A model generated the notes under the pieces. It was given only the letters and a program-made list of their open reading frames with translations, did no database searches and was not told the DNA's origin. A program made the position numbers and the translations under genes. A stretch of DNA of 48,997 nucleotides from Methyloversatilis sp. (lineage in GTDB: Bacteria; Pseudomonadota; Gammaproteobacteria; Burkholderiales; Rhodocyclaceae), in NCBI GenBank assembly GCA_016791045.1, contig JAEUNO010000007.1, positions 1 through 48,997 on the forward strand. The letters run 5' to 3'. Each line of letters starts with the position of its first letter. Positions within the stretch are counted from its first letter, which is position 1. This document shows, one piece after another, positions 26,871 to 48,727 of the stretch.

Positions 26871-27137
26871 ATGACGGGTGATGTGGCGTTACAACTGCTT
26901 GCAAGAATGCTCTGGGTGGCCGTGCAGATTTCGGCGCCATTGCTACTTATCACGCTGGCTGTCGGTCTGCTGGTCAGCATCTTTCAGGTGGTGACACAGA
27001 TCCAGGACATGTCGCTGTCCTTCATTCCAAAGTTGCTGACTGTGGTGCTGGTGCTTGTCGCGTTCGGGCCATGGATGCTGAAGCAGCTCGTGGGCTACTC
27101 GGCCTCGGTGATTTCAGGCATTCCGGGGTTCTTTTGA
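26871..27137 (+). CDS. fliQ: Flagellar-type export gate protein FliQ
   Basis: An 88-residue membrane protein with two hydrophobic helices and the family segments LLITLAVGLLVSIFQVVTQI and LSFIPKLLTVVLVLVAFGPWM. FliQ joins FliP and FliR in the helical gate through which type III substrates cross the inner membrane. The ATG at 26871 gives the normal family length; an in-frame ATG at 26838 would add 11 atypical residues. It opens the operon and is followed after 4 bp by fliR. fliP and fliO sit about 19 kb away at the other end of the same cluster, whereas most flagellar operons keep fliOPQR together. Confidence 0.93.
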   Translation: MTGDVALQLLARMLWVAVQISAPLLLITLAVGLLVSIFQVVTQIQDMSLSFIPKLLTVVLVLVAFGPWMLKQLVGYSASVISGIPGFF

Positions 27138-27141
27138 AGCC

Positions 27142-27876
27142 ATGGAATGGCTTTTCAAGGTCGCACTCGTTTCGCTGCGCCTTTCCCCGCTGGTCGTCGG
27201 TGCGCCCGTATTCGGCAACATTCCGGTGCCGGCCGCCGCGCGCATCGTGCTGCTGGTGGCGCTGGCGACCGGCCTCGCCGGCAGTCTGACCGTCGCGCCG
27301 CAGAACGTCGAAACCCTGCCGTGGATGGCACTGCACGAGTTGCTGGTCGGCGCAACGCTCGCCGCGGGGCTGTACACCGGCTTCGCCGCGCTGCATTTCG
27401 GCGGCCGCCTGCTGGACTTGCAGATCGGTTTCGGGATTGCCAGCCTGGTCGATTTCGCCAACAGCACCAATATGCCGCTGATCGGCACCCTGCTCAGCAT
27501 GGCCGGCGTGCTGTTCTTCTTTGCGATCGACGGACACCACGTGCTGTTTCACGTCCTGCAGTTGTCGCTGACCCGGATACCGCCGGGCGGCGCGCTCGAC
27601 GGCATCGATGCCGGCGCCGTCGTGGCGCAGTTCGGAAGTGCCTTCTCCTTCGGCTTCATGATCGTTGCGCCGGTGGTGATCTGCCTGCTGCTGGTCGATC
27701 TCGGCATGGCGTTCATGTCGCGCACCATGCCGCAGATGAATGTGTTCATCCTTTCGCTGGCAGTCAAGGTGCTGGTTGGCCTCGTGGTGCTCGCCCTGTC
27801 GATACCTTTCGCAGGCGCCGTGATGCAGAGGGTGTTCGACGCCGTGTTCGAGGGCTGGGCGAGGGTGGTGTCGTAA
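27142..27876 (+). CDS. fliR: Flagellar-type export gate protein FliR
   Basis: A 244-residue polytopic membrane protein with typical FliR segments: RLSPLVVGAPVFGNIPVPAA near the start, HELLVGATLAAGLYTGFAAL, GRLLDLQIGFGIASLVD, and the C-terminal LGMAFMSRTMPQMNVFILSL. FliR completes the FliPQR gate and contacts FlhB. The stop TAA overlaps the flhB ATG (TAATG), implying coupled translation. Length is slightly short for the family (about 260) but complete at both ends. Confidence 0.95.
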   Translation: MEWLFKVALVSLRLSPLVVGAPVFGNIPVPAAARIVLLVALATGLAGSLTVAPQNVETLPWMALHELLVGATLAAGLYTGFAALHFGGRLLDLQIGFGIASLVDFANSTNMPLIGTLLSMAGVLFFFAIDGHHVLFHVLQLSLTRIPPGGALDGIDAGAVVAQFGSAFSFGFMIVAPVVICLLLVDLGMAFMSRTMPQMNVFILSLAVKVLVGLVVLALSIPFAGAVMQRVFDAVFEGWARVVS

Positions 27877-28961
27877 TGGCCGAGCAGCAGCAGGACCAGG
27901 ATCGCAGCGAAGCCGCGACACCGTTCAAGCTGGAGGAGGCGCGCAAGCGCGGTTCCGTTGCCAAAAGCATGGACGTGAACAGCGTACTGGTGCTGGGCAC
28001 GGCGGCTTTCATGCTTCATTTTTCGGGCAGCCAGATCGTGTCGAGCCAACTGGCCTTGTATCGGTCGATGCTGTCGAATGCCGATGCGCGCTCGTTCGCG
28101 CTCGGCGATCTGTCCAGTTATTTCGGCCAGTTGCTGGTCGAGATGCTGTTGTCCTTGCTCCCCGTGCTGCTGCCCGTTGTCGTGATTGCCGCCCTCGGCA
28201 ATTTCCTTCAGACCGGGCCGGTCTTTTCCTTCTTCCCGCTCAAGCCCGATCTTGACCGCGTCAATCCGGTCAGCGGATTCAAGCGGCTGTTCTCCATGCG
28301 CCTGCTGGTCGAAGGTGTCAAGACCGTGTTGAAGATGTTGCTGCTCGGGGCGGTGCTCTATGCGGCGATTTCCTCGTCGCTGCCGGCCTTTCTGCGCAGC
28401 CTGTCCGTGGCGCCGGTTTCGGTGGGGCGCATCATCCTCCCGGAATTGGGTGATCTGCTGTTCCGGATGACCGCGGCGCTGTTGGTGGTCGCCCTGATCG
28501 ATGCCGTCTATAGCCGCTGGGATTTCGCCCGCCGCATGCGCATGAGTCGCCGCGATGTACGCGACGAGGTGAAACGACGGGAAGGTGACCCGCGCGTGAA
28601 ATCGCGCGTGCGCGAATTGCAGCGCGAGGCGCTGAAGCGTGCCGCCAGCCTCGGGCGTGTCAAGGACGCCGATGTGCTGATCACGAACCCGGTACATCTG
28701 GCGGTGGCGGTGCGCTACGACCGCGATACGCTCGATGCGCCGCGGGTGATTGCAAAGGGCGCGGGCTTTCTGGCCGCCCGCATGCGCCTGATGGCACGCC
28801 GCCACGGCGTGCCAGTGGTCGAAAACCGCCGGCTTGCCCGCGCGCTGTTCCATGGTGTGGCGATCGATCGGCCGGTGCCGCCCGAGCAGTATTCGGCGGT
28901 GGCCCGAGTGCTGGTCTGGGTCTATTCGATGCGGCGACCGGCGCCGGGAGTGCCGGCATGA
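27876..28961 (+). CDS. flhB: Flagellar-type export switch protein FlhB with NPVH in place of NPTH
   Basis: A 361-residue protein with an N-terminal cytoplasmic segment (ATPFKLEEARKRGSVAKS), four membrane helices, the linker PRVKSRVRELQREALKRAA and a C-terminal FlhB/SctU domain. FlhB switches export specificity after autocleavage between Asn and Pro of the NPTH motif. Here the motif reads TNPVHLAVAV, with Asn271, Pro and His kept and Thr replaced by Val. The cyclising Asn is present, so cleavage may persist, perhaps with altered rate. The domain continues APRVIAKGAGFLAARMRLMA to a normal end. The gene overlaps flhA by 4 bp. A paralogue of this C-terminal domain is encoded at 32174. Confidence 0.95.
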   Translation: MAEQQQDQDRSEAATPFKLEEARKRGSVAKSMDVNSVLVLGTAAFMLHFSGSQIVSSQLALYRSMLSNADARSFALGDLSSYFGQLLVEMLLSLLPVLLPVVVIAALGNFLQTGPVFSFFPLKPDLDRVNPVSGFKRLFSMRLLVEGVKTVLKMLLLGAVLYAAISSSLPAFLRSLSVAPVSVGRIILPELGDLLFRMTAALLVVALIDAVYSRWDFARRMRMSRRDVRDEVKRREGDPRVKSRVRELQREALKRAASLGRVKDADVLITNPVHLAVAVRYDRDTLDAPRVIAKGAGFLAARMRLMARRHGVPVVENRRLARALFHGVAIDRPVPPEQYSAVARVLVWVYSMRRPAPGVPA

Positions 28962-31003
28962 TCAGCCAGTTGCGCAGGATTGTTGGCGACAACTCCGACA
29001 TGCTGATGGTTGTCGGCATGCTCGGCATCCTCATCGTGCTGTTCACGCCGATTCCGCCGCAGGTGCTGGATTTTCTGCTGCTGGCCAACCTCGCCTTCGC
29101 GCTGCTGTTGCTGGTGCTGACCTTTTATGTCGAAAAGCCGGTGGAGTTTTCGACCTATCCTTCGCTGCTGCTGATTGCGACGCTGTTCAGGTTGTCGCTG
29201 AACATCGCGGCGACTCGCCTGATTCTCTCCGGCGCCGACGCGGGCAAGGTGATCGGTGCGATCGGCTCCTATGTGGTGCAGGGCAATTACGTCATCGGGT
29301 TGATCGTCTTCCTGATCCTGGTCGTGGTGCAGTACGTGGTCGTGACCAACGGCGCGCAGCGCGTGGCCGAGGTTGCCGCGCGCTTCACGCTCGACAGCAT
29401 GCCGGGCCAGCAGATGAGCATCGACGCCGACCTCAACATGGGGTTCATCGATCAGGTCGAAGCGCAGCGGCGGCGGAAGGAAATCGAGAAGGAAGCCAAC
29501 TTTTACGGCGCGATGGATGGCGCGAGCAAGTTCGTCAAGGGCGACGCGATTGCCGGCATCGTCATCCTGCTCATCGACATTTTCGGCGGGCTGGCCATCG
29601 GTGTGATGCAGATGGGCATGGGGTGGGGCGAGGCAGCCCGGACGTTCACGCTGCTCACGGTGGGTGATGGCATCGTGACCCAGGTGCCTGCACTGGTCAT
29701 TGCGGTAGGCACGGGCATCATCGTGACGCGATCCGGTTCGGACAGCCGCCTGAGCCGCGAAGTCATGACTCAGGTCGCAGCCTTTCCTAAGGCCATCGTC
29801 ATCGTGCTGATCGCGCTGCTCGGCATCGGCCTGCTGCCGGGCATGCCGATGCTGCCGGTGCTGGCGGTCGCTCTGGTGATGGGCGCCGTTGCCTACATGG
29901 TCAGTCGTGGCGTGGCGCGGAGCGCTGCCGAATCGGCGGAGGACAAGGCGGGCGCGCAGGCGACCGGCGAGCAGATCGAGGACCTGCTGACGATAGAGCC
30001 GGTCGAGGTGAGGGTGGGGCAGAACCTCATCGCGCTGGTGAACGACACCGATGCCGGTCTTGCCGACCGCATCACCGCGTTCCGCAAGCAATTTGCCCAG
30101 GACGCCGGATTCATCGTGCCGGGCATCAAGATCCGTGACGACAAGAAGCTGCCACCGCAGGGTTATCAGATATCGGTGTTCGGCATCGTGGCCGGCGAGG
30201 CGGAGTTGCTGCCGGACCGGATGCTGGCCATACATCCGCGTGGCAGCAAGGGCGCGCTCGAAGGCATCGAAACGAAAGATCCCACCTACGGCTTGCCTGC
30301 ACTCTGGATCGATGACGCGCAGAAGGCGGTGGCGCGAAGCGCCGGTTTCACGCTGGTTGACCCGATGACCGTCTTCGTCACCCACCTGACCGAGGTGCTG
30401 CGCCGCAACGCCGCCAACCTGCTCACGCGTTCGGCGACCGGTGCGCTCATCGAGCGGGTGCGCGAGCGCAACGCCGGTCTGGTCGAGGAGATCGTGCCGG
30501 GTGTGCTTTCGCTGGTCGAAATTCAGAAGGTGCTGCAGAACCTGCTGGGCGAAAAGGTTTCGATCCGGAATCTCGAAGCCATTCTCGAAGTGCTGGCTGA
30601 TGCAGGCCGGAGCGTAAAAAGTGCGGACGCGCTTACGGAGACGGTGCGGCAGCGGCTGGGCGCGGCGATCTGCCAGTCCCTGGTCGGCAACAAGGGGGAG
30701 CTGCCCGTGCTGACCTTCGATCCGGCCACGGAACAGCGCATCGCCAGCAGCCTGCAGGCGGCCGACGATGGCGTGCGCCTGCTGCTCGAACCGAAGTTCG
30801 CTGAAGCCGTGGTGGGACGTCTGGCGGGCCAGGTCGAGCAGATGATGAAGAGCAATGTGTCGCCGGTGCTGTTGTGCGCGCCGGAACTGAGGCGCCATCT
30901 GCGACGCATAACCGAGCGCGTGCTGCCGCACCTCGCGGTGCTGTCCATGGCCGAAGTGCCGCCGACATGCAGCCTGCGCTCCTACGGTGTGGTGAAGGTA
31001 TGA
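28958..31003 (+). CDS. flhA: Flagellar-type export gate protein FlhA
   Basis: A 681-residue protein of normal family length. The N-terminal half holds about eight membrane helices and the FHIPEP-family signature KGDAIAGIVILLIDIFGG, preceded by LDSMPGQQMSIDADLNMG. The C-terminal half is the cytoplasmic substrate-docking domain (from about residue 340), with YQISVFGIVAGEAELLPDRM and GLPALWIDDAQ. FlhA forms a nonameric ring that binds chaperone-substrate complexes below the FliPQR gate. The ATG overlaps the flhB stop and the stop overlaps the next ATG, so it lies in the core of the translationally coupled operon. Confidence 0.97.
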   Translation: MISQLRRIVGDNSDMLMVVGMLGILIVLFTPIPPQVLDFLLLANLAFALLLLVLTFYVEKPVEFSTYPSLLLIATLFRLSLNIAATRLILSGADAGKVIGAIGSYVVQGNYVIGLIVFLILVVVQYVVVTNGAQRVAEVAARFTLDSMPGQQMSIDADLNMGFIDQVEAQRRRKEIEKEANFYGAMDGASKFVKGDAIAGIVILLIDIFGGLAIGVMQMGMGWGEAARTFTLLTVGDGIVTQVPALVIAVGTGIIVTRSGSDSRLSREVMTQVAAFPKAIVIVLIALLGIGLLPGMPMLPVLAVALVMGAVAYMVSRGVARSAAESAEDKAGAQATGEQIEDLLTIEPVEVRVGQNLIALVNDTDAGLADRITAFRKQFAQDAGFIVPGIKIRDDKKLPPQGYQISVFGIVAGEAELLPDRMLAIHPRGSKGALEGIETKDPTYGLPALWIDDAQKAVARSAGFTLVDPMTVFVTHLTEVLRRNAANLLTRSATGALIERVRERNAGLVEEIVPGVLSLVEIQKVLQNLLGEKVSIRNLEAILEVLADAGRSVKSADALTETVRQRLGAAICQSLVGNKGELPVLTFDPATEQRIASSLQAADDGVRLLLEPKFAEAVVGRLAGQVEQMMKSNVSPVLLCAPELRRHLRRITERVLPHLAVLSMAEVPPTCSLRSYGVVKV

Positions 31004-32172
31004 AGATACTGCCCGCCATCCCGCTTGCGCAGCCACAATCCGGCCAGGCACAGTTTCTGTCTCTCGCCGATGGAGGCGCCTGGGCCGATACGCTGACCAT
31101 GGGCCAGATACTCAAGGCCCGGGTGCTTCGCCAGCTTTCCGAAGGACGCTACCAGCTCGACTTCGCCGGGCAGACGCGCGTAGTCGATTCGGCGATCCCG
31201 CTGTCGGTCGGCGATGTCCTGCATGGCAAGGTGGTCGGGCTTTCCGGTCAGGTCATGCTTGAGCGTGTGCAGGTCCCGCGGGATATTCATGCGGCCGGGA
31301 TTCCGCGCGACGGCGAGCACAGCGGCGCTGTGGCCCGCCATCCGCCCGCGGCGGACGGCGTTCTGAACGCGACCGAGCGCGCCGCGCTTGCCCGGATCAG
31401 CCGCAGTCTTGCTGATCCTGCACTGGCCGACCGGATCGGTCGTTTTCTGGTGCGGCTCGGGCTTCCGCTGTCTGCCGATCTCGTGAGGGTGCTGTACGAC
31501 GCCGTTTCGCCGGCTTTGCGTTCCGCGCAGGCGGTGGCGACGCCGGAGCTTGCGCAGGTGCCCCGACTGCAGTCGCTTCATGAGGCGCTGCTGCCGGCAG
31601 AAGGCGACGTCGCCGCCGAGCTGGCGGATCTGTGGTTTCGGTCAGGGCGCGACATCGACGATGACGCACCCACGGACGACGCTGCGGCCGACCCGGCTGA
31701 GGGCGATGCAAGCGACGGCGAGAGTGCCGAGCGGGCACCGGCCGACCTGATTCGCCAACTTCTGAACATACGGACCGGGGCTGCGTTCCAGCATCGCTTC
31801 CAGACCCTGCCGGTGGTGATCGATGGCCGGTTGATCGAGTTCGATCTGGCGCTGTTCGATCATCAGGCGCCGGATGAAAAGTCCGCAACGCGCAGTCGTC
31901 GCATACGCATGGATCTGCAGACCACGCTGGGTGTCGTGCAACTGGATGCCCGGGTCACCGGTGAGCGCGTCCGCATGGCGATCACGGCGGAGAACGAGGC
32001 CTTTGCGCTGGCACTTTCTTCGTTCCGACCGGAACTGGAACACGACCTTGATTCTGCCGGATGGGCGCTCGAACAGGCGGACTACCTGGCCGGCCCGGTC
32101 GTCGATGCAGGCGCTGCAGATGCCGTGATCGCTCACGTGCTGGCGCAGGACAGCCTGAGGATGGTGATCTGA
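31000..32172 (+). CDS. FliK-like hook-length control protein (Flg_hook-type C-terminus)
   Basis: A 390-residue protein starting at the ATG that overlaps the flhA stop. The middle is acidic and low in complexity (DDDAPTDDAAADPAEGDASD). The C-terminal part, about residues 260-370, has the FliK/Flg_hook pattern: LQTTLGVVQLDARVTGERVR, MAITAENEAFALALSSFRPE and LEHDLDSAGWALEQADYLAG. FliK is secreted as a ruler and triggers the FlhB switch, and the next gene encodes an FlhB-like domain. A second, smaller FliK-like gene sits at 42359. The domain match is by pattern, with no diagnostic residue. If both are real FliKs the system has two rulers. Confidence 0.7.
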   Translation: MKILPAIPLAQPQSGQAQFLSLADGGAWADTLTMGQILKARVLRQLSEGRYQLDFAGQTRVVDSAIPLSVGDVLHGKVVGLSGQVMLERVQVPRDIHAAGIPRDGEHSGAVARHPPAADGVLNATERAALARISRSLADPALADRIGRFLVRLGLPLSADLVRVLYDAVSPALRSAQAVATPELAQVPRLQSLHEALLPAEGDVAAELADLWFRSGRDIDDDAPTDDAAADPAEGDASDGESAERAPADLIRQLLNIRTGAAFQHRFQTLPVVIDGRLIEFDLALFDHQAPDEKSATRSRRIRMDLQTTLGVVQLDARVTGERVRMAITAENEAFALALSSFRPELEHDLDSAGWALEQADYLAGPVVDAGAADAVIAHVLAQDSLRMVI

Positions 32173-32173: not shown

Positions 32174-32464
32174 ATGCGCGAACCGGCACAGCGCGTCGTG
32201 GGACTTTCATACGGAGGCGAGTCAGGACGCGTATTGCCGCGACTGGTGCTGAAAGGCTCCGGTCCCGCCGCGGGTGACATTCGAAACGCCTTCGTGCGCA
32301 GGCATGGCGTACACCGCGTCGTTCGCGATGACGCACTGGTCGACAAGCTCTTCCGACTGCCGACCGACGCGGAAATTTCACCGGATCTTTACCGGCTTGT
32401 CGCCTTGCTGCTGGTACACGTCTTTGCAGTAGAAGCCCATTTGCGGAGCAATCGAGATGCTTGA
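32174..32464 (+). CDS. FlhB C-terminal-domain paralogue (FhlB/YlqH-like)
   Basis: A 96-residue soluble protein that aligns by eye with the cytoplasmic C-terminal domain of FlhB: VVGLSYGGESGRVLPRLVLK, then RNAFVRRHGVHRVVRDDALV, LFRLPTDAEISPDLYRLVAL and a final HVFAVEAH. It lacks the NPTH region and all membrane helices. Stand-alone FlhB C-terminal domains are known in several flagellar clusters and can partly replace the cleaved FlhB fragment. It follows the FliK-like gene by 1 bp and overlaps flgF by 8 bp, placing both candidate switch components together. Confidence 0.85.
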   Translation: MREPAQRVVGLSYGGESGRVLPRLVLKGSGPAAGDIRNAFVRRHGVHRVVRDDALVDKLFRLPTDAEISPDLYRLVALLLVHVFAVEAHLRSNRDA

Positions 32465-33185
32465 CCCGATCACACTGACGCTCGCCAGCATGCAGAACGA
32501 CATGCAGCGCATGAACCTGATTGCCAACAATGCGGCGAATGCGCTCACGCCCGGTTTCAAGCGTGAATTTGGCGTGATCGCCGGTCAGGTCGTCGACCGC
32601 ACGGCGGCGCCTTCCGGTCTGGCTGCGAGTGCCGAGGGGATTCCCCTGCTGGGCATACGTTCCGACGATCGCCCCGGTACGCCCCGGCAGACAGGCAATC
32701 CGCTCGACGTGGCACTGCTGGGCGAAGGTTATTTCGAGGTGCGCACCCCGGATGGATTTGCCTATACGCGCACCGGTGCGTGGCGGCTGGATGCCGACGG
32801 GCGCGTGGTGACCGAAGCGGGGCACGCCGTCATGGGCACCGGCGGCGAAATCGTGCTGACCAGCCCGACGCCGAAAATCGGTCGCGACGGTCGCATATTC
32901 GACGGCACGCGGGAACTGGGCAGGCTGAAGGTGGTGACATTCGAGGCAGGCGAATCGCTGAGCCGGATCGGTGGCGGGTTGCTTGTGCCGCACGCCTCGT
33001 CGCGTCACCGGGTGCTCGATCAGCCACGGGTTGCACAGGCGCATCTGGAGGCGTCCAACGTCGATTCAGCGCGGGAGATGGTGCAGATGATGGAAACCTT
33101 CAGACACTTCGAACAGAGCAGCCGCGTGCTGCAGGCCTACGACCAGGTACGTGACAAGGTGTTCACGAGCCTGGGACAGTTCTGA
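32457..33185 (+). CDS. flgF: Flagellar-type rod protein FlgF
   Basis: A 242-residue axial protein. The N-terminus has the rod/hook family signature (MQRMNLIANNAANALTPGFK), the middle has GNPLDVALLGEGYFEVRTPD and YTRTGAWRLDADGRVVTEAG, and the C-terminus has LEASNVDSAREMVQMMETFR, the heptad region of axial proteins. The order flgF before flgG supports FlgF, the proximal rod subunit. It overlaps the upstream gene by 8 bp. Length is normal for FlgF. Confidence 0.9.
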   Translation: MLDPITLTLASMQNDMQRMNLIANNAANALTPGFKREFGVIAGQVVDRTAAPSGLAASAEGIPLLGIRSDDRPGTPRQTGNPLDVALLGEGYFEVRTPDGFAYTRTGAWRLDADGRVVTEAGHAVMGTGGEIVLTSPTPKIGRDGRIFDGTRELGRLKVVTFEAGESLSRIGGGLLVPHASSRHRVLDQPRVAQAHLEASNVDSAREMVQMMETFRHFEQSSRVLQAYDQVRDKVFTSLGQF

Positions 33186-33228: not shown

Positions 33229-34008
33229 ATGATCGATTCCCTGTACATCGGCGCGACCGGCATGCATGCGCAGCAACTGCATGTCGACTCGATCGCGAAC
33301 AATCTGGCCAACGTCAATACAACGGGCTTCAAGAAAAGCCGCGTTTCGTTCGAGGACGCGTTCTACCGCATCAGTCAGGCCGGACAGGCTGATCCCACCG
33401 CGGGCGTTCAGCCGCTCGTACTGGGGCTGGGTACGCTGGTGTCGAGCAACGCGAAGTCCTTTCTGCCGGGCGAGATCAAGCAGACCGAATCGCCGCTCGA
33501 TCTGGCTATCCGTGGCAATGGCTTCTTCGAAATCACGATGCCGGACGGCTCGTCGGCCTACACCCGACACGGGGTGTTTCGGGTCAACAGCGACGGTGCG
33601 CTCGCGACGACGTCCGGGCATCCGCTCAAGCCGTCGTTGCAGATTCCGACCGACGCGCTCGAAGTGGTCATCGCGCCGAACGGTGTCGTGTCGGCACGCA
33701 TGCCCGACGAAACGACGCTGAGCGAGATCGGGCAGATCGAACTGGCCACCTTCACCAATCCGGCAGGGCTCGATCCGATCGGCGAAAACCTCTATCTGGC
33801 AACCGAACCTTCCGGCCAGGCACTCGTCGTTCGGCCGGGTGAAGAAGGCAGCGGGGCGCTGGCCCAGGGCTTTCTTGAGTCGTCCAACGTCAAGCTGGCC
33901 GAGGAAATGGTCAATCTGGTACTGGCTCAGCGTGCCTATGAGCTCAATGCACGTGTGATCCAGGTGTCCGATGAAATGCTGTCGATCAGCAATAACCTGC
34001 GCCGCTGA
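33229..34008 (+). CDS. flgG: Flagellar-type distal rod protein FlgG
   Basis: A 259-residue protein starting at the ATG at 33229 with a GGAGGA ribosome-binding site around 33214-33219. It has the N-terminal axial signature (SIANNLANVNTTGFKKSRVS), SPLDLAIRGNGFFEITMPDG, YTRHGVFRVNSDGALATTSG and the C-terminal motif LESSNVKLAEEMVNLVLAQR followed by AYELNARVIQ, which is typical of FlgG. It builds the distal rod that crosses the peptidoglycan and outer-membrane rings. Length is normal for the family. Confidence 0.96.
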   Translation: MIDSLYIGATGMHAQQLHVDSIANNLANVNTTGFKKSRVSFEDAFYRISQAGQADPTAGVQPLVLGLGTLVSSNAKSFLPGEIKQTESPLDLAIRGNGFFEITMPDGSSAYTRHGVFRVNSDGALATTSGHPLKPSLQIPTDALEVVIAPNGVVSARMPDETTLSEIGQIELATFTNPAGLDPIGENLYLATEPSGQALVVRPGEEGSGALAQGFLESSNVKLAEEMVNLVLAQRAYELNARVIQVSDEMLSISNNLRR

Positions 34009-34013: not shown

Positions 34014-34835
34014 ATGGTCATGCTGCGCGCTTTCCTGTCACTGATGATGTTCGCGTTGTCGAGCACGATACCGGCATGGGCCGGGACGGCTTTCGTGCGG
34101 ATGGAGCCATCCGCACTGCTTGACCGGGCGGAAGTGCGGCTCGGCGATGTGGCGTCGGTGTCGTCTTCGGATGCGCTGCTGGCGCGGCAGTTGTCAGGTG
34201 TCGTCATCGCGCGCCTGCAGTCAATCGCCGTTCCGGTGCGGATACGTCAGGTGGACGCCGAGGCGGCCGTACGTATCGCTCTGCCCGGGCTGGCGTCAGC
34301 CGTCCTGTGGGGCGGCGCTGCGGAGACCCGGGCCAGCGGGCGACCCATCCGGCGCGACCTCGGCGCGGCGGTCGATGATGCGGCGCGCGGGCTTTTCCGT
34401 CGCCTCGGGTCCGGACGCGTCGTCGAGGTCCGTCTGGCGACTGCACCCGGTGCGCTGGAACTGCCGCCGGGCCGGTTCGAGGCCCGGCCCGATTTTGCGG
34501 CGGCGGTGCTGATCGGATCGCGGCTTGATGTGCCGCTCCGCACCTATGTCGACGGTATTCCGATGGCTGTTGCACACGCACGCTTCGACATCCGTTTGCT
34601 GCGTCCGGATGTGCCGGGCCCGGGGGCGGGGCGAAGTGCGGAGAGCGTTGCCGTGCGGCGTGACCAGCCGGTGCGACTGCTGGTTGATGGCGGCGGTTTG
34701 AGGATTGAAACCGAAGGCGTTGCGCTGGACGACGCGGCAATCGGTGCTCCGGTCAGGATCCGGCGACAGGGGTCAGCGGCGACGCTGTCGGGGCAGGTCA
34801 TGGCGGCGGGAATGGTGCGAGTCGATGAAAACTGA
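34014..34835 (+). CDS. flgA: P-ring assembly chaperone FlgA
   Basis: A 273-residue exported protein with a clear signal peptide (MVMLRAFLSLMMFALSSTIP, cleavage after AWA) and a C-terminal SAF-type domain: VRRDQPVRLLVDGGGLRIET, GAPVRIRRQGSAATLSGQVM and AAGMVRVDEN. FlgA is the periplasmic chaperone for FlgI, encoded two genes downstream. The order flgF-flgG-flgA-flgH is familiar from several alphaproteobacterial clusters. The end overlaps flgH by 11 bp. Confidence 0.92.
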   Translation: MVMLRAFLSLMMFALSSTIPAWAGTAFVRMEPSALLDRAEVRLGDVASVSSSDALLARQLSGVVIARLQSIAVPVRIRQVDAEAAVRIALPGLASAVLWGGAAETRASGRPIRRDLGAAVDDAARGLFRRLGSGRVVEVRLATAPGALELPPGRFEARPDFAAAVLIGSRLDVPLRTYVDGIPMAVAHARFDIRLLRPDVPGPGAGRSAESVAVRRDQPVRLLVDGGGLRIETEGVALDDAAIGAPVRIRRQGSAATLSGQVMAAGMVRVDEN

Positions 34836-41901: not shown

Positions 41902-42366
41902 GTGGGTGCGCAACGGACACAGCGTTCACTGACGCGACTGGCGGACATGAAACGCCAGCAGGTCGACGCGTTGCGCGCCGATCTGATGCGTTTGCGCGAT
42001 CTGCAGCAGCAGGTCGAACGCGAGCATGCGCAGGCGCTGGAGGTGGAAAGCGGTTTCCTGGACGTGATGCGTGCGGCGGAGCAGCGCTCCGGGATGCGTG
42101 CCGACACGATGATCGAACATCGCGCCTATCTCGCACATCTGTCTGCGGGCGTTTTCCGCTGCAACGAAAGCGTTCGTCGCGTCGTGGCGCAGGTGGACGA
42201 GGCGCGCGACGCGCTTGAACGGGCCCGGAAGGATGTGAAGGTGCTCGAGAAGCTGTTCGAACGCCGGGCGATCACGCTTCGCGGCGAAGCGCAACGAAAG
42301 GACTGCATCATGGCGGATGCCCAGCAACTGGTCGGGCGTGCGGGCAAGGCGTGCGCAGATGGCTGA
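41902..42366 (+). CDS. fliJ: Export ATPase central-stalk protein FliJ
   Basis: A 154-residue, almost wholly helical protein from a GTG 3 bp after fliI. It has two long amphipathic helices (MKRQQVDALRADLMRLRDLQ; VAQVDEARDALERARKDVKV) and KLFERRAITLRGEAQRKDC, as expected for the FliJ coiled-coil hairpin inside the FliI ring. Identity rests on coiled-coil character and position between fliI and fliK. It overlaps the next gene by 8 bp. Confidence 0.85.
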   Translation: MGAQRTQRSLTRLADMKRQQVDALRADLMRLRDLQQQVEREHAQALEVESGFLDVMRAAEQRSGMRADTMIEHRAYLAHLSAGVFRCNESVRRVVAQVDEARDALERARKDVKVLEKLFERRAITLRGEAQRKDCIMADAQQLVGRAGKACADG

Positions 42367-43042
42367 CCTGTCCGGAATCATGCCGCACGACGCTACGAGC
42401 GCATCGGGTACCTCGGGGCGCGCCAGAAGCTACCGGCAAGCCTGGCTCGACGCGCTCGAAGACGCTTCGATGAGCCGCAGCGACCGCTGGAAAATGCCCG
42501 CCCATGATCCGGCAGGCGACGAACGCGAACGCGGGCGGCCGGCGTCGCCGGTCGTGCCCATCGGCGTGTCGACGTCGCAGGGTGCCACATCGCCCACGGC
42601 GACTGCACGTGTGCGCCGGGCAACCCCGGATCCTGCGCACGGCGAAGGAACGGCGATGCGCGCGCCACATGACGCGATGCGGTCGTCACCGGGAGCTGCC
42701 GTGTCCGGAATCGAACGGGCACCTCGCGTGCGCAGTACGGCACCCGTCGTCGAATCCTTGCCTGCCAGTCCGGTGAGCAGTCGCCCCGAAGCGCTGCTGT
42801 GGCAGCGGCAGCGTCTGACCGTCCTGCCGTCGGCGGAGGGCGGCGTCGAAGTGTGGGTGCGCGACGCGGCCCTGAGCGGCGCATCCCGCGTGGCCGGCTT
42901 GCTGCAGGACCTGCGGCGGACCTTTGGTGAAACGGCGGCCAGCCTCGTGAAGGTGGCCGTCAATGGAAAAGTGATCTATCGACAGGACGCGGCCACCCGT
43001 GCCGGACGTCCACATTCCGAGGTGACACGCGATGGCAGTTGA
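42359..43042 (+). CDS. Second FliK-like / SctP-like protein in the fliK position
   Basis: The ATG at 42359 overlaps fliJ. The 227-residue product has a long disordered, Arg/Ser/Pro-rich N-terminal part and a compact end from about residue 145: LLWQRQRLTVLPSAEGGVEV, WVRDAALSGASRVAGLLQDL and SLVKVAVNGKVIYRQDA. A disordered body with a small folded C-terminus is typical for secreted rulers (FliK/SctP), and the slot between fliJ and flgD is the usual fliK site. The C-terminus is unlike the Flg_hook domain seen in the gene at 31000. Function inferred from position and architecture only. Confidence 0.6.
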   Translation: MADLSGIMPHDATSASGTSGRARSYRQAWLDALEDASMSRSDRWKMPAHDPAGDERERGRPASPVVPIGVSTSQGATSPTATARVRRATPDPAHGEGTAMRAPHDAMRSSPGAAVSGIERAPRVRSTAPVVESLPASPVSSRPEALLWQRQRLTVLPSAEGGVEVWVRDAALSGASRVAGLLQDLRRTFGETAASLVKVAVNGKVIYRQDAATRAGRPHSEVTRDGS

Positions 43043-43451
43043 TTTGATAGGCGGCTCGGCCGCAGCAGCGACCGAAGCGCTGGATCTGCAGTCTTCGGCG
43101 CTCGGGCAGGAGGAGTTCCTGCGCATCCTGCTGGCGCAGTTGCGATTTCAGGACCCGCTCAAGCCGCTCGACAACCAGCAGTTTCTTGCCCAGATCGCCC
43201 AGTTTTCGGCGCTCGCGCAGACCTCGCAACTCAACGATCGCGTCGATACGCTGTTGAGCATCCAGGCCGCCACGCAATCAATCGGCTTGATCGGACGCAC
43301 CGTCGAAGTGAGCAGTGAATCCGGGGCGGGCGGGGTTGGGCAGGTGGCCTCGCTGCGCTTCGTCGACGGCCAGGCTGACATCACGGTACGTACCGCGTCG
43401 GGCGAATTGCTGACCGGCATCCGTCTTTCCCAGATTTCCGTCGTTCGCTAG
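43032..43451 (+). CDS. flgD: Hook cap protein FlgD, short form
   Basis: A 139-residue protein with the diagnostic FlgD N-terminal region LGQEEFLRILLAQLRFQDPL and KPLDNQQFLAQIAQFSALAQ, then IGLIGRTVEVSSESG and a C-terminal half-domain ending TGIRLSQISVVR. Usual FlgD is about 220 residues with an inserted Ig-like domain, which is missing here. FlgD caps the growing hook and allows FlgE polymerisation. It overlaps the upstream gene by 11 bp. Confidence 0.93.
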   Translation: MAVDLIGGSAAAATEALDLQSSALGQEEFLRILLAQLRFQDPLKPLDNQQFLAQIAQFSALAQTSQLNDRVDTLLSIQAATQSIGLIGRTVEVSSESGAGGVGQVASLRFVDGQADITVRTASGELLTGIRLSQISVVR

Positions 43452-43461
43452 GAGAAGCATC

Positions 43462-44649
43462 GTGTTCGACTCCATCTACACCGGCATGAGCGGCCTGATG
43501 AGCTATTCAAAGGGCTTGTCGAGCATTGGCAACAACGTCGCAAACCTCAACACGGCAGGGTTCAAGGGCAGCGATCTCGAGTTCCTCGACCTGTTCTATC
43601 GCCACCAGTACTCCGGTTCACCGGATCAACAGTCATCGCCCTACGCGCAGGGCTCCGGCGTCACGACCGGGGCGACCGTCACGCGGTTTTCCCAGGGGGA
43701 CTTCCGCCAGACCGGCAACCTGCTGGACGCAGCGATCGACGGCAATGGTTTCTTCGTATTGATGAAGGATGGCAAAACCATTTACAGCCGCTCGGGGCAG
43801 TTCGAGTTTGACGATCAGGGGGTGCTGGTCAGTCGCGAGGACGGCGCGCAGGTGGCGGGTCTGGAGGGCGGCGGACTGACGACGATCAGTCTTGCAGGCC
43901 GTCGCAGCGTGGCAGCGACGGCGACTACACAGGTGAGCTTCACGGATTCGCTGTCGGTGGGCTCGCCCAGTTTCGAGGTGACCAATATCAGCCTGTATGA
44001 CAGTCTGGGTGTGCAGCATGTGCTCACGCTGGCGCTGACCAACAACAATGCCGCCACGCCGGGAAGCTGGACCTACTCGCTCAACGAAGGGAGCCAGGTG
44101 CTCACGACCGGCGAGGTCCGTTACTCGGGCAGCGGCACGCCGGTCGCCGGATTCGAGCGCCGCGTCTTCACCTACTCGCCCGGCAATGGCGCTCGTGCCA
44201 CGGCGGTGACGCTTGATTTTTCGGCGTCCAATGCCTTTTCGAGTGCAACGTCAACACTCAAGGTCGGTTCGCAGAACGGCAAGGCGGCGGGTTTCCTGTC
44301 GTCGGCCGAACTCGATGCCCAGGGTGGCCTCGTGTTGTCATACTCCAACGGCGACAAGATCAACGGCCCCCGCCTCGCGCTGGCGAACTTCGTCAGCACG
44401 TCGGTGCTGCAACAGCAGGGCAGCAATCGCTTCGCGGTCTTCGGCGAAGCACGGCCACAGCTGGGTACCGCCGGGCAAGGGGTGTTCGGCAGCCTGCGTG
44501 CGGGCAGTGTCGAGCTGTCCAACGTTGATCTGGCGCGCGAGTTCAGCGAACTGATCGTCGTGCAGCGCGGCTACCAGGCCTCTTCGCAAGTCATCTCGGC
44601 TGCCAACGAAATGATCCAGCAGCTGGGCGAAATCCGGGGGCGTCGCTGA
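43462..44649 (+). CDS. flgE: Hook protein FlgE
   Basis: A 395-residue axial protein from a GTG with AGGAGAA at 43450-43456. N-terminal signature SIGNNVANLNTAGFKGSDLE; middle SQGDFRQTGNLLDAAIDGNG and FEVTNISLYDSLGVQHVLTL; C-terminal LSNVDLAREFSELIVVQRGY and QVISAANEMIQQLG. This is the complete FlgE layout, so a true hook should form. No hook-associated proteins (FlgK, FlgL) or flagellin are encoded nearby to continue it. It overlaps the next gene by one base. Confidence 0.96.
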   Translation: MFDSIYTGMSGLMSYSKGLSSIGNNVANLNTAGFKGSDLEFLDLFYRHQYSGSPDQQSSPYAQGSGVTTGATVTRFSQGDFRQTGNLLDAAIDGNGFFVLMKDGKTIYSRSGQFEFDDQGVLVSREDGAQVAGLEGGGLTTISLAGRRSVAATATTQVSFTDSLSVGSPSFEVTNISLYDSLGVQHVLTLALTNNNAATPGSWTYSLNEGSQVLTTGEVRYSGSGTPVAGFERRVFTYSPGNGARATAVTLDFSASNAFSSATSTLKVGSQNGKAAGFLSSAELDAQGGLVLSYSNGDKINGPRLALANFVSTSVLQQQGSNRFAVFGEARPQLGTAGQGVFGSLRAGSVELSNVDLAREFSELIVVQRGYQASSQVISAANEMIQQLGEIRGRR

Positions 44650-45443
44650 TGCAGGCCAGGCCTTTTCGCTTGTCGGGCGAGCGTGCGCATGCGGCGGTCA
44701 AAGCACTGCTGCGCATCGAGGCGACCGCCTGGGCGAAAGAGTGGTTCATTCAGCCGCAGGAACCCCAGGTCGAAGTCGACATCGGCGAATGCGCACTGCT
44801 GGACGGCGGCTGGCGTCACGCAGGAGCCGGTGACGAAAGCTGGGTGGCGTTGCGCTTGCGCGATGGTCTGTGGCGAGAGTTGGCCGCAGAGCTGTTCGGT
44901 TCAAGCGGTCTGGGCGGTGCGCAACCCAGTGTTCTGATGTCCGCAGTCATGGACGAATCGTTAGGCGATCTCCTGAACCGCCTGCTGGCTGCAGCCGGGG
45001 GGAGTGAAGCCGTGAGTCACCCCGCCGCGGGTTTGGCGAGTCTGCGTACCGGTTACGGCTCGGGCGCGCTCCTGGCGGCAGTGTCGCTGGGGGCCTTGCA
45101 TATCGATCTGGGCATTGGCGGCCATGTCGTCACCGCGCTTGCGGCCCGTGACACACCTCGCAGCCCTCGGGTGCAGCCCTTGAGCCCGCGCGAGGCATGT
45201 ATTGCAGGAGGGCGCATCGCGGTCGAGGTGAGGGTGGGGGAGGCAGAGCTCACGGTGGGTGAATTGTCGCAACTCATGATCGGTGACGTGATCCGGCTTG
45301 ACGCGCTTCACAGCAAACCGCTGAGCGTGCGCACGCGCAGCGGGCGTGTGGTGGGAGCCGCCTACCTCGGTCTCCGCGAAGACCACAAAGCCGTGCAGAT
45401 GGCAGTACAGATTTCAGACAGGAAAGAAGCGAAACATGCATGA
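44649..45443 (+). CDS. SctQ/FliM-position protein with one C-terminal SpoA domain
   Basis: A 264-residue protein. Residues about 190-253 form a SpoA (FliN/SctQ) domain: VEVRVGEAELTVGELSQLMI, GDVIRLDALHSKPLSVRTRS and GRVVGAAYLGL. The N-terminal part (to about 180) is not recognisable as the CheC-like middle domain of FliM. The FliM opening with the EIDALL-type CheY-binding motif is absent; the protein starts MQARPFRLSGERAHAAVKAL. The overall plan, an unknown N-domain plus one SpoA, matches injectisome SctQ better than FliM. It sits directly before fliN, with an 8-bp overlap, and should form the cytoplasmic sorting platform rather than a switchable rotor. Confidence 0.82.
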   Translation: MQARPFRLSGERAHAAVKALLRIEATAWAKEWFIQPQEPQVEVDIGECALLDGGWRHAGAGDESWVALRLRDGLWRELAAELFGSSGLGGAQPSVLMSAVMDESLGDLLNRLLAAAGGSEAVSHPAAGLASLRTGYGSGALLAAVSLGALHIDLGIGGHVVTALAARDTPRSPRVQPLSPREACIAGGRIAVEVRVGEAELTVGELSQLMIGDVIRLDALHSKPLSVRTRSGRVVGAAYLGLREDHKAVQMAVQISDRKEAKHA

Positions 45444-45780
45444 AGAATCAAAGCACATCGCACCGCCAGCCCAGATCGTGACGCTGCGCGAACTTCCGGC
45501 CGGGGCGACGAGCGGTCAGAAGCTGCTGAATGGCGGGTTGTCCATCGTATCCGGCGTGAAGGTGAAAGTGGATGTATGGGTGGGCGAGGCCGAAATGACC
45601 ATCCAGCAATTGTTCGATCTGAGGGCGGAATCGGTCGTGGTCCTGGACCAGTTGTACGACGCGCCGGTGTCGGTGCGCCTTGATGGGCAGACGATTGCCA
45701 CCGGAACCTTGGTGGTCGTGGGCGACCATTTTGGTGTCAAGGTGTCCGATATCCTGCCTGCGCCAGCTTTGGCGGAATGA
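45436..45780 (+). CDS. fliN: Cytoplasmic ring/platform protein FliN
   Basis: A 114-residue protein with one SpoA domain at about residues 40-105: VKVKVDVWVGEAEMTIQQLF, DLRAESVVVLDQLYDAPVSV, RLDGQTIATGTLVVVGDHFG and VKVSDIL. FliN (SctQ-C) docks FliH and substrate complexes at the base. Its length fits short FliN proteins. Start and stop overlap both neighbours (upstream by 8 bp, fliO by 4 bp). Confidence 0.94.
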   Translation: MHEESKHIAPPAQIVTLRELPAGATSGQKLLNGGLSIVSGVKVKVDVWVGEAEMTIQQLFDLRAESVVVLDQLYDAPVSVRLDGQTIATGTLVVVGDHFGVKVSDILPAPALAE

Positions 45781-46208
45781 GCGTTCGTATCGTGCTGCTT
45801 GCTGTCGTTATCGCATTCGGCGGCCTGCTCGACGGTCTGTCGCCACACTCAGCCCTGGCGGCCACCCCGCAGAGTGCCATTCCTTTCAAGAGCGAGCCAT
45901 CGCCGCTCGAAACGCATGGCGAACGCGTGCTCTATGCACTGGGCGGGTTGATCGTGCTCGCCCTCGGCGGCCTGTGGTTACAGCGCAAACTGCGCCCGGG
46001 AACGCCCTTGTTCCCGCCGTCTCAACGGCCGCTGCAGGTCATTGGCCGGACGCGTCTCACGGCGCGCAGCATGCTCGTCGTCGTGCGTTATCGCGACGAG
46101 GAAATGCTGCTTGCCGTCAGCGGTGACCGTGTCGTTCGTCTGGATACGGCAGCGTCCGTGGTGGTTCCGCCGTCGGGCGCCGCGCGTGAGGATGGCGACC
46201 ATGCATGA
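45777..46208 (+). CDS. fliO: Export gate assembly protein FliO
   Basis: A 143-residue protein with an N-terminal hydrophobic leader (RIVLLAVVIAFGGLLDGL), a second helix (VLYALGGLIVLALGGLWL) and the FliO-type cytoplasmic domain LQVIGRTRLTARSMLVVVRY then RDEEMLLAVSGDRVVRLDTA. FliO helps FliP form its hexamer. It is tied to fliN (ATGA) and to fliP (8-bp overlap). Family sequence is weakly conserved, but position and topology agree. Confidence 0.88.
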   Translation: MSVRIVLLAVVIAFGGLLDGLSPHSALAATPQSAIPFKSEPSPLETHGERVLYALGGLIVLALGGLWLQRKLRPGTPLFPPSQRPLQVIGRTRLTARSMLVVVRYRDEEMLLAVSGDRVVRLDTAASVVVPPSGAAREDGDHA

Positions 46209-46971
46209 AAGGCTGAAAAGGGGTTCGGTGGTTGCCGTGCTCGTTCTTGCTGGCGGTCTGCTACCGGCTTGCGTGCAGGCTGATGCGCCGGCTGCGACCG
46301 ACGCACTGGCATCGCTGGTGGCACCCGGCAAGGCAGACGCGGCCGAACTGTCCAACGCGCTGCGCATCCTCGTACTGCTCACGGTGTTGAGCCTGGTGCC
46401 GGCGCTGATGATCGCGACCACATCCTTCCTGCGCATCATCGTGGTGCTGTCCATGCTCAGACAGGCGCTTGGCATGCCGGACACACCGCCCAATGCGGCG
46501 CTGATCAGCATTGCGCTGTTCCTGACGCTGTTCACGATGTCGCCCGTCCTGCGCAATATCGACCAGCATGCCTGGCAGCCTTTCCAGGCCCGTCAGCTAT
46601 CTCTTGACCAGGCGCTTGTCGAAGGGCTGAAGCCGTTGCGCGACTTCATGGTGCGGCAGACGCGCGAGAACGATCTCGCGCTCATGGTCGAACTGGCCGG
46701 CACGGCACAGCCCGAGTCGGTGGACGATATCGGCATCACCCAACTCATTCCGGCTTTCATGCTCAGTGAACTGCGCTCGGCCTTCCAGATCGGTTTCATG
46801 ATCTTCCTGCCGTTCCTGATGATAGATATCGTCATCGCCAGCATCCTCACCTCGCTGGGCATGATGATGGTGCCGCCGATCACCATCGCGCTGCCGCTGA
46901 AGATACTGATGTTCATCCTGATCGACGGCTGGAATCTGGTCGTCCGTTCGCTGATGAGCAGCTTCCAGTAA
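46201..46971 (+). CDS. fliP: Export gate protein FliP
   Basis: A 256-residue protein with a cleavable-type leader (VVAVLVLAGGLLPACVQADA) and classic FliP blocks: LVPALMIATTSFLRIIVVLS, MLRQALGMPDTPPNAALISI, ALFLTLFTMSPVLRNI, LIPAFMLSELRSAFQIGFMI and LTSLGMMMVPPITIALPLKI. FliP is the main ring of the export gate together with FliQ and FliR, which are encoded at the far start of this operon. Normal length, intact. Confidence 0.97.
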   Translation: MHERLKRGSVVAVLVLAGGLLPACVQADAPAATDALASLVAPGKADAAELSNALRILVLLTVLSLVPALMIATTSFLRIIVVLSMLRQALGMPDTPPNAALISIALFLTLFTMSPVLRNIDQHAWQPFQARQLSLDQALVEGLKPLRDFMVRQTRENDLALMVELAGTAQPESVDDIGITQLIPAFMLSELRSAFQIGFMIFLPFLMIDIVIASILTSLGMMMVPPITIALPLKILMFILIDGWNLVVRSLMSSFQ

Positions 46972-46988
46972 GAGCGTGGGAGCCGGCT

Positions 46989-47705
46989 GTGGATGCGCGC
47001 GAGGAACAGGCAGTCTGGCAGCGCTTCATCGCCGAGGGCGATGCCATGGCGCGCGCGAATCTCATCGGCCACTACACCTCGCTGGCCAATCTGCACGCGG
47101 CGATGGCATTCCGGCGCCGGCAGCAGCGCGAAATGGACTTCGACGACTTCCGCCACTATGCGCTGGTCGGGTTGATCGAGGCGGTGGACCGCTATCGGCC
47201 GGAAGGTGGTGCGAGCTTCCGCACCTTTTCCAGCCAGCGCATACGCGGTGCCATCCTGAATGGCATCGAAAAGCACAGCGAAGCGCAGGAGCAGATGGCG
47301 ATGCGGCGACGCCTGCGTAAAGAGCGCGTCGGCGCGCTGCAGACCGGCGCCGCAGAGGCGGGCAGCGACCCTTTCACGCGCCTGGTCGACATCGCCATCG
47401 GTGCGGCGATCGGATTCATGCTTGAAGACTCGGGCCTGTTCAGGGGTGACGAGGCCTACGAGCACAACATCTATCGCAGCCGCGAGTTGCGCGATCTCGC
47501 GCGACTGCTCGAAGGCATTGTCGATACCCTGCCGGATCAGGAAGGCCGGATGATCCGCTACCATTATTTCCAGCAGATGCGGATCGACGACATCGCGCAG
47601 CAACTGGGTATATCCAGAGGCCGCGTATCGCAGATCCACCATCGCGCACTGCGACGCATGCGCGAGCATTACGACCGGCTCAAGGTGCATCGCACCGACT
47701 ATTGA
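46989..47705 (+). CDS. FliA-type (sigma-28-like) RNA polymerase sigma factor
   Basis: A 238-residue protein from a GTG with GGGAG at 46978-46982. Region 2: FDDFRHYALVGLIEAVDRYR and GASFRTFSSQRIRGAILNGI. Region 4: LEGIVDTLPDQEGRMIRYHY, then the helix-turn-helix RIDDIAQQLGISRGRVSQIH followed by HRALRRMR. These are FliA-group features. In motility systems FliA drives late genes (flagellin, motors) and is held by FlgM; neither the late genes nor flgM are present. It may control this operon, effectors elsewhere, or the two genes that follow. Confidence 0.92.
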   Translation: MDAREEQAVWQRFIAEGDAMARANLIGHYTSLANLHAAMAFRRRQQREMDFDDFRHYALVGLIEAVDRYRPEGGASFRTFSSQRIRGAILNGIEKHSEAQEQMAMRRRLRKERVGALQTGAAEAGSDPFTRLVDIAIGAAIGFMLEDSGLFRGDEAYEHNIYRSRELRDLARLLEGIVDTLPDQEGRMIRYHYFQQMRIDDIAQQLGISRGRVSQIHHRALRRMREHYDRLKVHRTDY

Positions 47706-47737
47706 GCGATCCGCAACCCACAGACGAAAGGCGCACC

Positions 47738-48301
47738 ATGACCTCCTCCTCAGCGGTATTCGACCAGGACGAACTGCTGCATCTGGCCATCGACGCCACC
47801 CGCCGCGGCGACCACGGCGCAGCACTCGCTTTCCTGAAGGAGGGCGCACAGCGCTTTCCGGACGATGCCAGGCTCGCCTACATGCTCGGCGCCGAGCATG
47901 CGCAGATCGGCCTGTACGACCGCGCCGAACAGGAATTCGAACGCGCGCTCGACCTCGCGCCCGAACTGCATACCGCGCGCTTCCAGCTCGGCCTGTTGCG
48001 CATGACCAACGGCAACGTCGAGGGCGCACGTACGGGCTGGCGGCCGCTGGAAGACATGCTGCCCGCCGGCCATGCGCTGGTGCTGTTCAAACAGGGGCTT
48101 GAAGCACTGTCGGAAGAACGCATCGACGCTGCGCGCGGCCTGATCGAAAGCGGGCTGGCCGCCAATGATTTCAGCGCCGAACTGAATACCGACATGGAGA
48201 ACCTGCTGGCGCGCATCAACGCCTCGCCGGTCGAAGAAGCGCAGGATTCCGACAGTAGTCACGTGTGGCTGTCCGCCTACCGGAATGACGGCAGTCATTG
48301 A
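47738..48301 (+). CDS. Small TPR-repeat protein at the end of the flagellar-type cluster
   Basis: A 187-residue soluble protein. The ATG at 47738, 6 bp after GAAAGG, is preferred to the in-frame TTG at 47702. TPR units: DELLHLAIDATRRGDHGAAL, YMLGAEHAQIGLYDRAEQEF, ERALDLAPELHTARFQLGLL and EERIDAARGLIESGLAANDF. Small TPR proteins serve as class II chaperones in injectisomes, so a secretion chaperone is one option, but the repeats alone do not show it. It follows the sigma factor and is probably in the same transcript. Confidence 0.75.
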   Translation: MTSSSAVFDQDELLHLAIDATRRGDHGAALAFLKEGAQRFPDDARLAYMLGAEHAQIGLYDRAEQEFERALDLAPELHTARFQLGLLRMTNGNVEGARTGWRPLEDMLPAGHALVLFKQGLEALSEERIDAARGLIESGLAANDFSAELNTDMENLLARINASPVEEAQDSDSSHVWLSAYRNDGSH

Positions 48302-48346
48302 GCAGATTCGCCGCAATCCCCCTGACCCTGACGCGGAAACCACATC

Positions 48347-48727
48347 ATGGACCCGATCAAACCGCTTTCCGCGCTGAACGCACTGCTCGGCCAGCGCCTC
48401 GCCAGCCGCCGCAGCGAGCAGGGTACGGCGACGGGAAAGGCAGCCCATCCTGCGCCGGGCTCGACGGTGGCGATGGCCGGGGGCGGAGCGGTAACGCTTG
48501 AAGAACTGCGACGCGGCATCAGCGAAGCCGTGCAGTCGATCGAACCGACCGACCCCGACCGCCGCCGCAAGACCGCCCGCGTGTTCGCCGAGCACGTACT
48601 ACGCTGGCAGTTCGGCGACGACATCCTCAACGACCCGCGCTTCGCAGAGCTGCTGGACGAAGTAGGCGCGGTGCTGGAGCTGGAAGGCGACGGACTGATT
48701 GCCGCACTGCAGGACGGTGGCCTGTGA
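48347..48727 (+). CDS. Conserved-looking protein of unknown function, last gene of the cluster
   Basis: A 126-residue soluble protein. The N-terminal 45 residues are Ala/Gly/Ser-rich and probably flexible (ALNALLGQRLASRRSEQGTA). The rest is helical: TLEELRRGISEAVQSIEPTD, PDRRRKTARVFAEHVLRWQF and GDDILNDPRFAELLDEVGAV. A flexible start before a helical body is compatible with a secreted or chaperone-bound protein, but this is speculation. Its stop overlaps a GTG that reads in frame into an fhs 3' fragment, so the cluster ends at a rearrangement point. Confidence 0.65.
   Translation: MDPIKPLSALNALLGQRLASRRSEQGTATGKAAHPAPGSTVAMAGGGAVTLEELRRGISEAVQSIEPTDPDRRRKTARVFAEHVLRWQFGDDILNDPRFAELLDEVGAVLELEGDGLIAALQDGGL

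Follow-up and report, generated by a model that had tools for sequence, protein, structure and literature searches.

What purpose is served by a flagellar export apparatus that is complete with rod, rings and hook, and that is encoded with neither motor nor filament? This question is raised by a 48,997-nucleotide stretch of DNA from Methyloversatilis sp. (GenBank assembly GCA_016791045.1, contig JAEUNO010000007.1, positions 1 to 48,997 of the forward strand), referred to here as the window, which makes up the entire contig C18 of a 3.54 Mb genome in 47 contigs that is 92% complete. As the original prediction had it, a run of 29 consecutive plus-strand genes (26838-48727) encodes the export gate, the ATPase complex, the MS, P and L rings, the rod, the hook, FliN, FliO and a sigma factor, a composition directly supported by open frames and by Pfam and NCBIfam profiles. 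We read this cluster, with a probability of about 0.7, as a non-rotating, flagellum-derived type III machine that exports giant polymorphic RHS toxins. The machine is found again in numerous bacteria of soil and water, usually alongside giant toxin-like proteins, and probably serves to export these rather than to swim. This account keeps a good part of the earlier interpretation and corrects it in several places; above all, the giant RHS gene upstream of the cluster had been overlooked.

Composition of the cluster and its reduced C-ring

Pfam scans of 30 window proteins and of further pieces of the window, covering most but not all of the small open reading frames (ORFs), returned no FliG_C, flagellin, FlgK/L, FliD, FliS or Mot family, in agreement with the gaps first reported. 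A separate, ordinary flagellum is encoded elsewhere in the same genome, where a genome-wide profile search found a FliG_C match on contig C23, three Flagellin_N matches (C41, C45 and C4, the last FlgL-like by eye), MotB on C4 and C38, and a second FlhA on C4. Because these motor parts are encoded elsewhere, the lack of motor genes in the window alone proves nothing. The cluster might therefore be a second motility flagellum that relies on the ordinary flagellar set for its FliG_C domain, stators and filament proteins, and the presence of FliG_C, MotB and flagellins outside the cluster in all five comparison genomes, as in that of the window, speaks for such borrowing. Against it stand the protein that occupies the FliG position, the genomes that carry no other flagellum, and the ancestry of FlhA, which are considered in turn.

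FliG had been thought simply absent, and this did not hold up. The gene orfG (39210..39815, +) encodes a product that, by profiles and a predicted model, models as a FliG cut down to its N and M domains, with the torque (C) domain gone. A short protein of this kind fills the FliG position in all 73 loci that hold both fliF and fliI, 71 being recognized by hidden Markov model and two by eye, and its median length is 203 aa (70 products). The predicted model aligns up to about residue 190 of FliG in full-length FliG chains. Among 51 products searched with Pfam, FliG_M was matched by five (best 4.5e-4), FliG_N by five (best 0.021) and MgtE_N by 13, and the first five Foldseek matches were FliG or C-ring chains of FliG length, at E 0.45 or worse. 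In flagella, the N+M part of FliG is the portion that binds FliF and FliM.

The neighbouring C-ring component is similarly reduced. The original prediction found no canonical FliM, which is correct as regards the CheY-binding N-terminus but not as regards the fold, which is otherwise retained. The gene at 44649..45443 (+) encodes a truncated FliM-like protein of 264 aa with a CheC-like middle and SpoA domains, identified by FliMN_C and a predicted model. In model comparisons its fold is FliM-like, yet tied with FliY and CheC, and it aligns from FliM residue 40-44 onward in whole C-ring chains. The EIDALL-like pattern associated with CheY binding was found in the first 60 residues of none of 71 FliM-like proteins, and the window protein scores 22.8 bits on the NCBIfam FliM profile against a cut-off of 219.6. 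It is thus, as modelled, a FliM-like protein without a CheY-binding N-terminus.

Independence from a motility flagellum is directly supported by genomes in which the cluster stands by itself. Among 49 cluster genomes, which were chosen from 80 loci and are not a random draw, eight possess only the FlgI of the cluster; by title, seven are isolates and one is a metagenome-assembled genome (L030). Genome-wide searches of all eight found neither FliG_C nor Flagellin_N, while both were found in all five of the hand-picked comparison genomes. Of the motor and filament families, the genome-wide searches covered FliG_C, Flagellin_N and MotB_plug, the stators being represented by MotB because the MotA family also includes ExbB/TolQ; MotB_plug was absent from seven of the eight. 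The remaining genome (G185), which has the cluster and neither flagellin nor FliG_C, carries a weak MotB_plug match at C12:589190-589297 (28.1 bits against a cut-off of 24). Since these eight genomes lack FliG_C and flagellin, the cluster stands without motor or filament.

Occurrence, lineage and selection

Four of the cluster proteins, FlhA, FliF, FliP and FlgI, score above their NCBIfam flagellar cut-offs. FlhA reaches 793.4 bits on the FlhA profile (TIGR01398, cut-off 772.1) and 580.7 bits on the SctV profile (TIGR01399, cut-off 692.25), and FliF has a far higher score on the FliF profile than on SctJ. FlhB falls narrowly below its cut-off (347.4 against 349.25), and FliN, the FliM-like protein and the sigma factor each lie below theirs. 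FliI passes the FliI/YscN subfamily and lies under all FliI/SctN equivalog cut-offs among the matches listed (25 of 38 families). In a quick tree of 42 FlhA rows, comprising the window, 20 of 60 usable cluster rows, 17 flagellar rows and four SctV rows, the cluster rows, 21 in all, group together (SH-aLRT 100) next to the flagellar FlhA and not inside it, and the SctV rows stand apart on long branches. Ten proteins in this tree were typed by NCBIfam, and four rows typed as flagellar score just below the FlhA cut-off. Judged by sequence, the cluster is a distinct and widespread FlhA lineage of flagellar type and not of SctV type. Together, the separate FlhA group, the eight genomes and the 73 loci render a second motility flagellum with a borrowed motor very unlikely. 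The same FlhA and the same eight genomes lend good support to the earlier view of a non-swimming structure descended from a flagellum, whether for secretion or at the surface.

The FlhA and FliF scores also bear on another reading, in which the cluster would be a true injectisome with eukaryotic cells as the destination of its effectors. Like injectisomes, it combines type III export with the lack of a motor, and Paracidovorax and Herbaspirillum, both members of the cluster group, are plant-associated. FlhA and FliF are, however, of flagellar type, the P and L rings, rod and hook are present, and the recognized RHS tips described below are of kinds known from bacterial competition. An injectisome is accordingly very unlikely.

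In a set of 150 relatives, an FlhA 60-74% identical to that of the window occurs in four further genomes, which belong to the same order but to families other than that of the host, and the other matches that cover most of FlhA show at most 47% identity; the close form is present in none of 12 genomes of the same genus. The contigs of the four genomes share the same gene order, most unnamed genes included. An alignment scan of a named genome collection with FlgI yielded 114 relatives, of which the best 80 were kept, and 72 of these 80 are titled Burkholderiales or other Betaproteobacteria. Genera with the cluster include Massilia, Duganella, Collimonas, Janthinobacterium, Variovorax, Ramlibacter, Paracidovorax, Pandoraea, Trinickia, Methylobacillus and others, and FlgI relatives outside the Betaproteobacteria include those of Hahella and Microbulbifer. 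Profile searches of the 80 loci, as far as each one reaches, recovered a near-fixed order, fliQ-fliR-flhB-flhA-flgF-flgG-flgA-flgH-flgI-flgB-flgC-fliE-fliF, continuing with orfG-fliH-fliI-orfK2-flgD-flgE-fliM-like-fliN-fliO-fliP, with frames open across the set.

These loci bear on whether the cluster is the remnant of a decaying flagellum. Several flagellar genes are indeed missing, and incomplete modules may be remnants left after gene loss, according to one account (PMC12199754). Within close pairs, however, the ratio of nonsynonymous to synonymous change (dN/dS) stays under 1 in all computed combinations of gene and pair (maximum 0.83); the ORFs behind these values were called mechanically, and some of them carry false 5' parts. 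The ratio for flhA is 0.05-0.21 in the seven of nine close pairs that hold this gene, one of which (L061/L068) joins two genomes without an ordinary FlgI; values of 0.38-0.83 were obtained for L036/L041, and in most pairs the fliM-like gene, fliN and orfG lie above flhA. The cluster is under purifying selection in the close pairs compared. Additionally, its gene order is nearly fixed, the same domains are missing throughout, and it is also annotated on two plasmids, pMSMB2035 of Burkholderia ubonensis and pUYM01 of Undibacterium sp. YM2. Because of this selection, and because the cluster occurs where no ordinary flagellum does, simple decay, already doubted in the original prediction, is hardly credible.

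The giant RHS companion and a proposed export function

Upstream of the cluster lies a single gene of 16 kb (6474..22574, +) whose product, a giant RHS/YD-repeat protein of 5366 aa identified by Pfam, is a putative exported polymorphic toxin. It comprises a conserved N-terminus, a DUF6531 domain, 23+2 stretches of RHS repeats, a LysM domain and a lipase-like C-terminal tip, and PAAR is absent from its Pfam matches at E 0.01. A model of the N-terminus (94 residues, built from the window protein and two copies from G145) has matches in 47 of the 49 cluster genomes, and at least one RHS frame of at least 3,000 codons is present in 39 of the 49. The longest frame, of 10,955 codons, lies on the same contig as the cluster (G165:C66:22182; locus L042, titled Massilia frigida). 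In 29 genomes the N-terminus is found on the contig of the cluster itself, on the same strand in 25, and in 28 of these 29 the RHS frame lies no more than 22 kb from flgI, the remaining one being 115 kb away; some of the same-contig matches are short frames at contig ends.

The association also holds in an evenly drawn sample of 399 genomes from the order, in which the cluster was present in 16, the RHS N-terminus in 15 and both in 12, the last spanning nine families. The N-terminus thus occurs in 12 of 16 cluster genomes against 3 of 383 others (Fisher p 2.8e-17, kinship ignored). The cluster was called here at a FlgI identity of at least 45%, the least certain calls being G312 (48%) and G236 (45%), and up to 12 RHS and up to five FlgI candidates were scored per genome. 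The cluster appears without the N-terminus in G114, G211, G236 and G469, and the N-terminus without the cluster in G382, G430 and, weakly, G468. The cluster contig of G114 starts inside an RHS gene, so that this miss is probably an assembly break. The link is therefore directly supported, and a giant RHS gene is a frequent companion of the cluster.

This partnership extends to plasmids. pMSMB2035 (NZ_CP013415.1; L143, L144), which is typed as conjugative, bears the cluster together with a giant RHS gene; the gene past the terminal TPR gene of the cluster encodes a protein of 4,897 aa that aligns with the RHS protein of the window from the N-terminus. The whole module may hence be mobile between cells. 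Searched with the 94-aa N-terminus, plasmids gave partial matches only (five records). On a 1.2 Mb Variovorax replicon with unannotated genes, a FlgI of 54% identity lies about 15 kb from an RHS N-terminus. On pUYM01 (NZ_AP018442.1, L145) flgI is annotated as two pieces, and the cluster is found near a 38.8 kb gene annotated as a 'tandem-95 repeat protein'.

The RHS proteins are alike in body and differ at their ends. In a set of 20 tails (the window and 19 fetched), the part 550-749 aa from the end aligns with 12.4-13 of the 19 other tails, against 0.1-0.4 on average for the last 350 aa. Bodies are conserved and C-terminal tips nearly all differ, which is the polymorphic RHS pattern. Tips that could be recognized are a GH-E nuclease (two), a CDI EC869-like nuclease, a HINT domain and the lipase-like tip of the window, which matches Lipase_3 at E 1.7e-4 with 21.9 bits and so misses the cut-off (22) by 0.1 bit. 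WHH and Mur_ligase_C are weak matches, and 12 of the 18 fetched tails scanned have no family at E 0.01. The tail from one draft genome (L123) appears frame-shifted near its end and was used unaltered. In 18 of 20 cases an ORF of at least 80 codons begins no more than 30 nt from the stop of the RHS gene, compared with 1506 of 4000 random positions. In the window it encodes an ankyrin-repeat protein (22587..23327, +; Ank_2, 2.1e-15), which starts 12 nt past the RHS stop, has a lipoprotein-like N-terminus by eye and is a candidate immunity protein.

It may be asked whether the RHS protein is merely a mate on the same island that leaves the cell by some other route, the machine being non-rotating all the same and its product a surface structure resembling a hook, a conduit of the nanotube kind or other substrates. 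Different delivery routes are indeed in use among RHS proteins, and nanotubes have been associated with type III cores. Two further points weigh against dedicated export: export of the RHS protein is itself something that we infer, and the survey includes three genomes with the N-terminus and no cluster and four with the cluster and no N-terminus. On the other side stand the proportions in that survey (12 of 16 against 3 of 383), the adjacency in 28 of 29 same-contig cases, the single N-terminus common to RHS proteins with differing tips, and the joint presence of both on a plasmid typed as conjugative. Taken together, these leave the island-mate account with some weight, and on the whole unlikely.

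For dedicated RHS export, including its order, delivery and target, the following scheme is proposed. FliF, the N+M form of FliG, the FliM-like protein and FliN would build a cytoplasmic platform for FliHIJ and for the FlhAB-FliPQR gate, and the rod, P and L rings and hook would serve as a channel through both membranes. Gone are the torque domain FliG_C, the binding of CheY, the stators and the filament. The giant RHS protein would be a late export substrate, in the place of flagellin, and would pass through the channel unfolded with its N-terminus leading, to fold outside as an RHS shell carrying the variable C-terminal toxin. The small gene behind the RHS gene would protect the producer. 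With slightly less assurance than we attach to the reading as an RHS exporter, we favour regarding the machine as a third functional class of type III system next to flagellum and injectisome: a hook-basal body that is mobile, has a torque-less FliG and no motor, and is dedicated to the export of giant RHS toxins and is widespread in Burkholderiales and some other Gammaproteobacteria.

Layout of the window and relation to known systems

The remaining cluster genes, all on the plus strand and assigned by Pfam unless stated otherwise, begin with those of the export gate: fliQ (26838..27137; Bac_export_3, 6e-26), fliR (27142..27876; 9.9e-53), flhB (27876..28961; also NCBIfam and motif) and flhA (28958..31003). 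A first fliK-like gene (31000..32172) has a weak Flg_hook domain (PF02120, 6.4e-6, 26.3 bits, under the cut-off of 29.8), and is followed by a separate gene for a FlhB C-terminal domain (32174..32464; 1.4e-4, under cut-off). A short ORF of the latter kind is found in seven loci, of which L044 resembles a split flhB. Rod and ring genes are flgF (32457..33185), flgG (33229..34008), flgA (34014..34835), flgH for the L ring (34825..35415; 3.9e-47), flgI for the P ring (35419..36525; 3.4e-114), flgB (36555..36941; a weak match under cut-off, plus position), flgC (36941..37375), fliE (37372..37680) and fliF for the MS ring (37747..39213; also NCBIfam), whose product retains a C-terminal helix-like segment by eye. 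Beyond orfG come fliH (39569..40552, with a true start probably near 39790), the ATPase gene fliI (40549..41898; also NCBIfam), fliJ (41902..42366; 8e-7), a second fliK-like gene (42359..43042), assigned by position and a C-terminal pattern seen by eye and having no Pfam match, flgD for the hook cap (43032..43451) and flgE for the hook (43462..44649; also NCBIfam). The FliM-like gene is followed by fliN (45436..45780), fliO (45777..46208), fliP (46201..46971; also NCBIfam), a FliA/WhiG-like sigma-70 factor (46989..47705), a TPR protein (47702..48301) and orfZ (48347..48727), a small protein without a Pfam family that was recognized by conservation.

The claim that all catalytic motifs are intact applies to FliI, with its Walker A motif AGSGVGKST, but FlhB is not canonical, since NPVH replaces NPTH; among 60 FlhB matches in other loci, NPTH is found in 48 and NPVH in three. 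Cleavage of the window FlhB is uncertain because of this replacement. The fliK-like genes, together with FlhB, suggest that a substrate switch survives.

Another TPR protein adjoins the cluster (25415..26611, +) and is a possible chaperone; it is kept in 15 of 80 loci, most of which end before reaching this point. Close to the left contig end, a transposase-like gene (739-1821, by eye) suggests an island border. Back to back on the minus strand (1776-3676) are an AAA_21 ATPase gene and a DUF4276 gene, which look like a defence-type pair, and the interval 2001-4000 has 42% G+C. Another large ATPase-like gene (3874-5592, minus strand, by eye) lies upstream of the RHS gene. A promoter scan ahead of fliQ and a tRNA scan of the window found nothing.

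Compared with a motility flagellum, the cluster shares the export gate, ATPase complex, MS, P and L rings, rod, hook, FliN, FliO and a FliA-like sigma factor; it differs in lacking FliG_C, the CheY-binding start of FliM and the stator, hook-associated and filament genes, and in having a separate FlhA group and a giant RHS partner. Like an injectisome, it is a type III export system without rotation, probably for toxins. Unlike one, it has an FlhA of flagellar type, keeps its rod, hook and P and L rings, and includes no needle, secretin or translocon among its annotated genes, no profile search having been made for these. A typical Rhs protein is about 1,500 aa long, and those linked to the cluster are some three to seven times as long and are encoded beside a flagellar-type system. 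With the polymorphic RHS toxins that are familiar mainly from type VI secretion they share RHS repeats, differing tips and a small gene behind, as the concept is set out in two accounts (PMC3482391, PMC8636562), and the window protein departs from type VI-linked forms in having no PAAR match. The Buchnera-type hook-basal bodies likewise have no filament and are a reduced set found in symbionts; the present set is conserved, occurs also on plasmids and has its own partner gene. Burkholderia fla2 is likewise a second flagellar cluster in a genome with another, but is described as a motility system (PMC3885511), unlike this cluster without motor and filament. Among the matches listed from the open-licence PMC literature, none described a flagellar cluster that lacks FliG and is linked to RHS proteins.

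If this reading is correct, the cluster shows one use of half a flagellar motor, in which export is kept and torque, switch input and filament are removed, and it would offer a natural test of the role of the C-ring in export alone. It would also suggest a delivery route for giant RHS proteins that, like that of the window, have no PAAR match. Finally, bacteria that do not swim and are annotated with 'flagellar' genes may carry a secretion weapon.

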